Part shown: positions 42,454 to 42,820 of the stretch, piece after piece
How positions within the stretch are numbered: position 1 is the first letter of the stretch
Layout of the letters: each line of letters opens with the position of its first letter
Assembly: GCF_003967035.1 (NCBI RefSeq)
Contig: NZ_AP018560.1
Span: forward strand, 953,001-1,017,000
Length of the DNA stretch: 64,000 bases
Direction: 5' to 3'
DNA from: Aerosticca soli
GTDB taxonomy: Bacteria; Pseudomonadota; Gammaproteobacteria; Xanthomonadales; Rhodanobacteraceae
Notes under the pieces: model-generated
Database searches by the model: none
The model's input: the letters and a program-made list of their open reading frames with translations, nothing else
What the model was told of the DNA's origin: nothing
Made by a program: the position numbers and the translations under genes

Positions 42454-42554
42454 AAGCACGCTTCCCGGCGACAGGCCGGCCGGATGTGCGGCTTGTGAGC
42501 CAGTTCTCGCGGCTTGGAAAAATTCCGGCTTGTACGGGTTCTTCCATGCCATCT

Positions 42555-42768
42555 ATCGTCCAAGAGTCCGCGGCGGGGAGCCGCTGGATGGTCCTGTGCC
42601 GATGAGTCTTGCGTCCCACAGCCGCAAGACTTGCCGGGATCTCACCTGAGCCCAGGCGCCGCCCTTACAGGACGTAAAGGGGAAGGTGGCGAGCGGGCTT
42701 CACGGGGCCGCCTGTCCAAGTACAAGGCGCCGTGCGTCGCACGGCTTTCTAGCGCATGGGGCTTCAAG
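42555..42768 (+). ncRNA. Candidate structured RNA or long leader, class unknown
   Basis: The 367-bp gap between sufT and the M4 peptidase gene (42454-42820) has no credible gene but much potential RNA structure. A GCGGC/GCCGC hairpin lies at 42569-42583. A perfect 9-bp stem AGTCTTGCG/CGCAAGACT lies at 42605-42632. Long-range pairing of GTCCTGT (about 42591) with ACAGGAC (about 42667) encloses it. A last hairpin GCCGTGC-GTC-GCACGGC is followed by TTTCT near 42768. It could be an independent small RNA ending in that terminator-like hairpin, or a regulatory 5' leader. I could not match it to 6S RNA, RNase P, tmRNA, SRP or a known riboswitch. Confidence 0.35.
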
Positions 42769-42820
42769 AGTGGCCACATCAGGACCGCTCGCGCCCAAGG
42801 AATGTCCGGAGAGTCCATCG

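Follow-up and report, generated by a model that had tools for sequence, protein, structure and literature searches.

A probable cis-acting RNA switch in the conserved leaders of secreted-protease genes of the Rhodanobacteraceae

The window analysed here is a stretch of 64,000 nucleotides from the genome of Aerosticca soli. It contains an intergenic region of 367 bases between a gene with a FeS_assembly_P domain, which ends at 42453 and which we take to be SufT-like, and the gene of a secreted M4 protease, which starts with ATG at 42821. Both genes are syntenic in relatives, as judged by tblastn. The following features are discussed.

41896..42453 (+): upstream neighbour with a FeS_assembly_P domain (Pfam PF01883), outside the element
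42454..42820: intergenic leader region between the FeS_assembly_P gene and the secreted M4 protease gene
42530..42559 (+): promoter, TTGTAC (42530-42535), 18-nt spacer, TATCGT (42554-42559)
42567..42588 (+): hairpin H1 at the RNA 5' end, with a G-rich loop, UCCGCGGC-GGGGA-GCCGCUGGA
42590..42709 (+): multibranch domain closed by helix P1 (42590-42598 with 42701-42709; nine pairs including two G-U)
42605..42631 (+): hairpin P2 within the P1 domain, AGUCUUGCG/CGCAAGACU (42605-42613/42623-42631)
42648..42700 (+): arm P3 within the P1 domain, outer helix 42648-42653/42695-42700, middle helix 42657-42663/42685-42691, GGGGAAGG on its 3' side
42710..42718 (+): junction segment J, candidate anti-Shine-Dalgarno, partner 42803-42813, pairing imperfect in the window
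42729..42745 (+): hairpin H3, GCCGUGC-guc-GCACGGC, followed by TTTCT
42756..42796 (+): switch region with alpha AUGGGGCU (42756-42763), beta GGCCACAU (42772-42779), gamma CAGGACC (42780-42786) and delta GCGCCC (42791-42796); alpha:beta is mutually exclusive with beta:gamma plus alpha:delta
42808..42813 (+): Shine-Dalgarno sequence GGAGAG of the protease gene
42821..44977 (+): regulated gene, which encodes a secreted protease of the M4 (thermolysin) type that carries two PPC domains (Pfam PF01447, PF02868, PF07504, PF03413, PF04151)

A preliminary description of this region had called it highly structured, pointing to a stem of nine base pairs, a long-range pairing that encloses it, a terminal hairpin followed by TTTCT and a promoter-like pair TTGTAC/TATCGT. 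All four are present at the places claimed (P2, P1, H3 and the promoter), and the stems covary in homologues. The folding energy, however, shows no excess of structure: compared with dinucleotide shuffles the 367 bases are ordinary on the plus strand (z -1.04, with 17 of 100 shuffles as good) and on the minus strand (z -0.65). A simple sigma-70 promoter scan and a terminator scan returned nothing inside 42454-42820. Searches with Rfam 15 gave no match in the window leader at the gathering score, none over 42300-43000 at E<=10 and none in the leaders of nine relatives; at E<=1 five relatives had seven sub-threshold matches, all of them outside a leader. The sole Rfam match of the 64-kb window at the gathering score is a tRNA gene at 58211-58284 (+). 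Taken as a single sequence, the region would make a weak case for a leader, but its conservation in homologues goes beyond chance.

A DNA search of 61 genomes recovered a relative of most of the region in one genome (G007, 68% identity) and of its 3' end in another (G018), both upstream of the orthologous protease. A stricter threshold, applied to 233 family genomes, brought no further relatives. DNA similarity gave only two convincing relatives, so that further leaders had to be sought by protein synteny and with a covariance model. Synteny supplied more leaders from named genomes (Rhodanobacter, Dyella, Frateuria, Luteibacter and others). Fourteen of these synteny leaders aligned well, and RNAalifold found H1, H3 and the 3' hairpin in them unguided. 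The covariance model, R1, was built on the 3' module of the 14 leaders, exclusively M4 leaders, and it matches 113 of 233 Rhodanobacteraceae genomes in 17 of 26 genera, with up to six matches per genome. The 132 model matches in fetched loci correspond to 118 distinct leaders after duplicate removal and to 110 after a 95% filter; the later tests use 69, 71, 51 or 52 representatives. An order-wide search, in a set that includes some family members, gave matches in 67 of 398 genomes, and the only one outside the Rhodanobacteraceae has no fitting ORF. The class-wide search (369 genomes, again including some family members) gave three, namely the window and two weak matches. Outside the family no convincing copy was found among the 398 order and 369 class genomes. 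Four Luteibacter loci (L020, L021, L024, L026) carry a shortened leader before the M4 gene at the orthologous locus. In it H1, H3 and the 3' hairpin seem to be retained, and much of the P1 domain is missing; the relation is one seen by eye, and the model does not detect these short leaders (22 loci searched, best E 0.42).

The genes behind the leaders encode secreted proteins of three classes. Each of the 118 distinct leaders directly precedes an ORF, 62 of the S53 type, 44 M4 and 12 of a family that we call YGGG. Classes were assigned by phmmer with one reference per class, and ten proteins were checked by Pfam; the S53-type class comprises relatives of a protein with a pro-kumamolisin activation domain (S53 sedolisin type). 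The placement before S53-type and YGGG genes was recovered although the model had been trained on M4 leaders only. Among 22 weaker model matches, 21 also precede S53-type, M4 or YGGG genes, and the lone exception is the single one outside the Rhodanobacteraceae. The leader marks a subset of these genes, as in 11 genomes compared a listed leader stands at 11 of 34 S53-type and 9 of 18 M4 genes. The genome of the window carries one leader and two M4 genes and lacks S53-type genes. There are also clusters of neighbouring protease genes, an M4-S53-S53 arrangement (L133, G139:C1:809300-818000) and an M4-M4 pair (G216:C1:1590655 / 1593488), whose genes each have their own promoter and leader copy. 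The YGGG proteins, with 12 members behind leaders, form a secreted family whose N-terminal part carries no Pfam or NCBIfam name, and searches of this part gave no substantial match in Pfam, NCBIfam or PDB. They share an invariant HExxE motif (H304-E305-x-x-E308 in L119 numbering) and other invariant D, E and C residues, and their C-termini are often PKD, PPC or ricin-lectin domains (L119:4702-5835 (+); also L120, L123, L130, L132, L135, L136, L157 and L162). An AlphaFold model of a YGGG protein was uninformative (pLDDT 36). YGGG may be an undescribed metallopeptidase family.

Support for the individual helices comes mainly from an arm-swap test, in which the pairing energy of cognate arms from the same RNA is compared with that of arms exchanged between RNAs in 2000 permutations. 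Tree-based covariation tests of the 3' module yielded no pair at E<0.05 (best H3, 0.09 and 0.59); such tests are underpowered here, with heavy nulls and a tree from one short alignment, and arm-swapping was used for this reason. Arm-swapping leaves some relatedness between sequences, which was countered by representatives below 80% identity, by control pairings and by stratified permutations. Every proposed helix of the 5' and 3' modules gains from cognate arms, while eleven control pairings per module gave z values between -2.3 and +2.2 in the full sets. An unbiased scan covered 1,770 window pairs, each window 10 columns wide. Ranks 1 to 23 (z -10.1 to -4.1) all belong to the proposed helices, alpha:delta included; some unassigned pairs appear below them, beginning at z -4.0, and J:Shine-Dalgarno reaches z -3.4. 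The negative tail of the scan extends to -10.1, compared with a 99.9% quantile of +3.5 on the opposite side. Pair counts in 52 sequences agree: 93.2% of cells are paired in one alternative structure and 91.2% in the other, and changes on both sides occur in 62 and 56 cells, respectively, versus shuffled means of 18 and 21. By all three approaches, matched changes in the homologues keep each helix. The helices contain G-U pairs, which fit the plus strand.

In the 5' module, the promoter lies immediately upstream of H1. A TTGnnn-N16-18-TAnnnT arrangement at this position is found in 51 of 71 representatives and in 1.5% of shuffles, and transcription would accordingly be expected to begin near 42566. 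H1 is the top pair of the unbiased scan (arm-swap z -11.7, 0/2000). P1, which closes the multibranch domain, holds rank 3 in the scan (z -7.7, 0/2000), and within the domain P2 reaches z -7.0 (0/2000) and P3 z -4.3 for the outer and -8.5 for the middle helix (each 0/2000). An inverted repeat of the TAGGAA-nn-TTCCTA type adjoins the -35 element at 42514-42530 in the window, and in Luteibacter (L020, L021, L024, L026) a perfect inverted repeat, CCTAGGGAAATCCCTAGG, lies upstream of the promoter. The repeat beside the -35 element is a possible activator site; of 51 promoters checked, only 14-16 contain a GAAAA-type core.

In the 3' module, H3 has an arm-swap z of -11.0 (0/2000) and compensatory pairs at four of its seven positions. 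The switch region downstream of it offers two arrangements. The consensus of beta is GRCC-n-CAU, that of its upstream partner alpha AUG-n-GGYC and that of its downstream partner gamma GG-n-YC; the alpha and gamma pairings use the same beta bases and thus cannot coexist. Both gain from cognate arms, alpha:beta with z -5.6 and beta:gamma with z -6.2 (0/2000 each). Moreover, beta:gamma covaries when alpha is held identical (1/2000 permutations), and alpha:beta covaries when gamma is held identical (3/2000). This independent covariation of beta with two exclusive partners suggests the signature of a switch. The accompanying alpha:delta pairing has z -2.3 (27/2000) and is not significant with beta held constant (624/2000). 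RNAalifold pairs beta with gamma in M4 leaders and with alpha in S53 and YGGG leaders; its proposal of a delta:Shine-Dalgarno pairing was rejected, as this pair shows no covariation (arm-swap z +1.1). In one lineage (L202, L206, L174, L140, L159) a compensatory change in the switch hairpin turns CAUGGGG...CGCAU into CACGGGG...CGCGU or CCGUGU. By calculated energy beta:gamma is the more stable of the exclusive folds, with a median difference of 2.5 kcal/mol, and calculated access to the Shine-Dalgarno sequence is nearly equal in the two forced folds (0.37 vs 0.35). The GGAG of the Shine-Dalgarno sequence is near-invariant in the alignments. Its region finds its best-supported contact in J, with z -3.6 (1/2000) over all representatives; this contact is clear only in M4 leaders (z -3.3, 3/2000) and falls to z -1.7 (99/2000) in non-M4 leaders.

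We read the region as the promoter and the structured 5' leader, about 250 nt long, of the protease mRNA: a cis-acting, probably translational RNA switch that is one copy of a secreted-protease regulon element. We give this reading a probability of roughly 0.6. The comparison of homologues demonstrates that the element is conserved and stands at the start codons of genes from three protein families, that all its helices covary and that the exclusive pairings do so independently; where transcription starts, that control is translational, which fold is the ON state and what kind of signal is sensed is what we infer. The preliminary description had offered an unknown riboswitch as one possibility. 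What holds of this is a cis-regulatory leader that is conserved, covaries, offers alternative pairings near the ribosome-binding site and is absent from Rfam 15, while the ligand remains a candidate part of the proposal. Conserved covarying secondary structure in a 5' UTR, the general mark of riboswitches, is found here, and of the features of an expression platform, alpha:beta and beta:gamma are both supported, whereas the calculation gives no effect on Shine-Dalgarno access.

The main rival is that CsrA/RsmA would bind GGA in the H1 loop, in P3 and at the Shine-Dalgarno sequence and would block translation, with no small ligand involved. The leader resembles CsrA/RsmA-bound mRNA leaders and RsmX-type RNAs in having several hairpins with GGA-bearing loops and a GGA in the Shine-Dalgarno sequence. 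CsrA is encoded in the genome of the window, and GGA occurs in the H1 loop of 53, in P3 of 58 and in the Shine-Dalgarno window of 50 of the 71 representatives. However, 18 of the 71 H1 loops, about a quarter, have no GGA, and the leader differs from such RNAs by its P1-closed multibranch domain and exclusive pairings, is not a free sRNA and has no Rfam match. Neither a closed multibranch domain nor a set of two exclusive pairings is known as a usual requirement of Csr targets, and we count this against this unlikely explanation. The leader could also be a stable 5' UTR that does not switch and that protects the mRNA or serves as a ribosome standby site, the second beta pairing being a by-product of relatedness. 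The equal calculated Shine-Dalgarno access in both folds fits this idea, as does the GGA-bearing, Shine-Dalgarno-like G-rich H1 loop of most copies. Nevertheless, either beta pairing covaries with the other partner held constant, and we regard a static leader as improbable, more so than regulation by CsrA/RsmA.

Two further explanations appear very remote, both to a similar degree. The preliminary description had suggested an independent small RNA that would end, at a terminator of its own, about 50 bp upstream of the protease start, and the H3 hairpin with its TTTCT in the window and the conserved promoter would agree with it. This suggestion did not withstand the comparison of homologues, in which H3 turns out to be a conserved internal hairpin: a run of four T follows it in only 6 of 69 representatives, which is not the pattern of an intrinsic terminator, and the terminator scan of the region was empty. 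Furthermore, conservation is strongest downstream of H3, up to the Shine-Dalgarno sequence, and 118 of 118 copies abut a start codon. Control by a leader peptide, encoded in a short ORF beginning behind the H1 loop, draws on an ATG found there in 41 of 71 representatives; the ATG is absent in the other 30, and the ORFs range from 3 to 97 codons (5 in the window) with no common end.

The protease leader belongs to a known kind of element, the structured cis-regulatory leader or orphan riboswitch candidate, and its target set is unusual. It shares with c-di-GMP riboswitches (Rfam GEMM families) that leaders control surface or secreted proteins. In C. difficile, zmpI itself is under c-di-GMP riboswitch control. 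The adhesins cleaved by the secreted protease ZmpI are controlled by c-di-GMP riboswitches in this species (PMC6366702). The protease leader has a different architecture from c-di-GMP riboswitches and no Rfam match in the window or in the relatives scanned. Orphan riboswitch candidates are structured leaders whose ligand is yet to be found, as described in a review (PMC7266159). Compared with the candidates treated there, the protease leader is similar in its complex covarying structure, conserved loop nucleotides, several target genes and exclusive pairings near the start codon; it differs in that it targets secreted proteases and is confined to one family. Neither protease nor peptidase appears as a word in that review. 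In open-access papers we found no description of such a protease-leader element.

In the mechanism that we propose, transcription from the conserved promoter would start near 42566 and produce a leader reaching to the start codon at 42821. The H1/P1 domain may act as a sensor of a small molecule, an ion, pH or a protein, and its state would shift the balance of the switch-region folds and the J:Shine-Dalgarno helix. The shifted balance would then change ribosome access to the protease start. More specifically, the element could be a new Rhodanobacteraceae riboswitch class whose multibranch domain is the sensor and which controls, at translation, a regulon of secreted proteases from three unrelated families, a proposal that we advance tentatively and hold less firmly than the general reading. 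About half of the genomes of the family (113/233) have this one element of about 250 nt, which stands upstream of genes from at least three non-homologous families of secreted proteins. It is an orphan element that comes with coordinates, a structural model and exclusive pairings, and its partner would reveal the signal behind the decision to secrete proteases. If the reading is true, the Rhodanobacteraceae would possess an extracellular-protease regulon that is defined by RNA, in which a single signal within the cell determines protease secretion at the RNA level.
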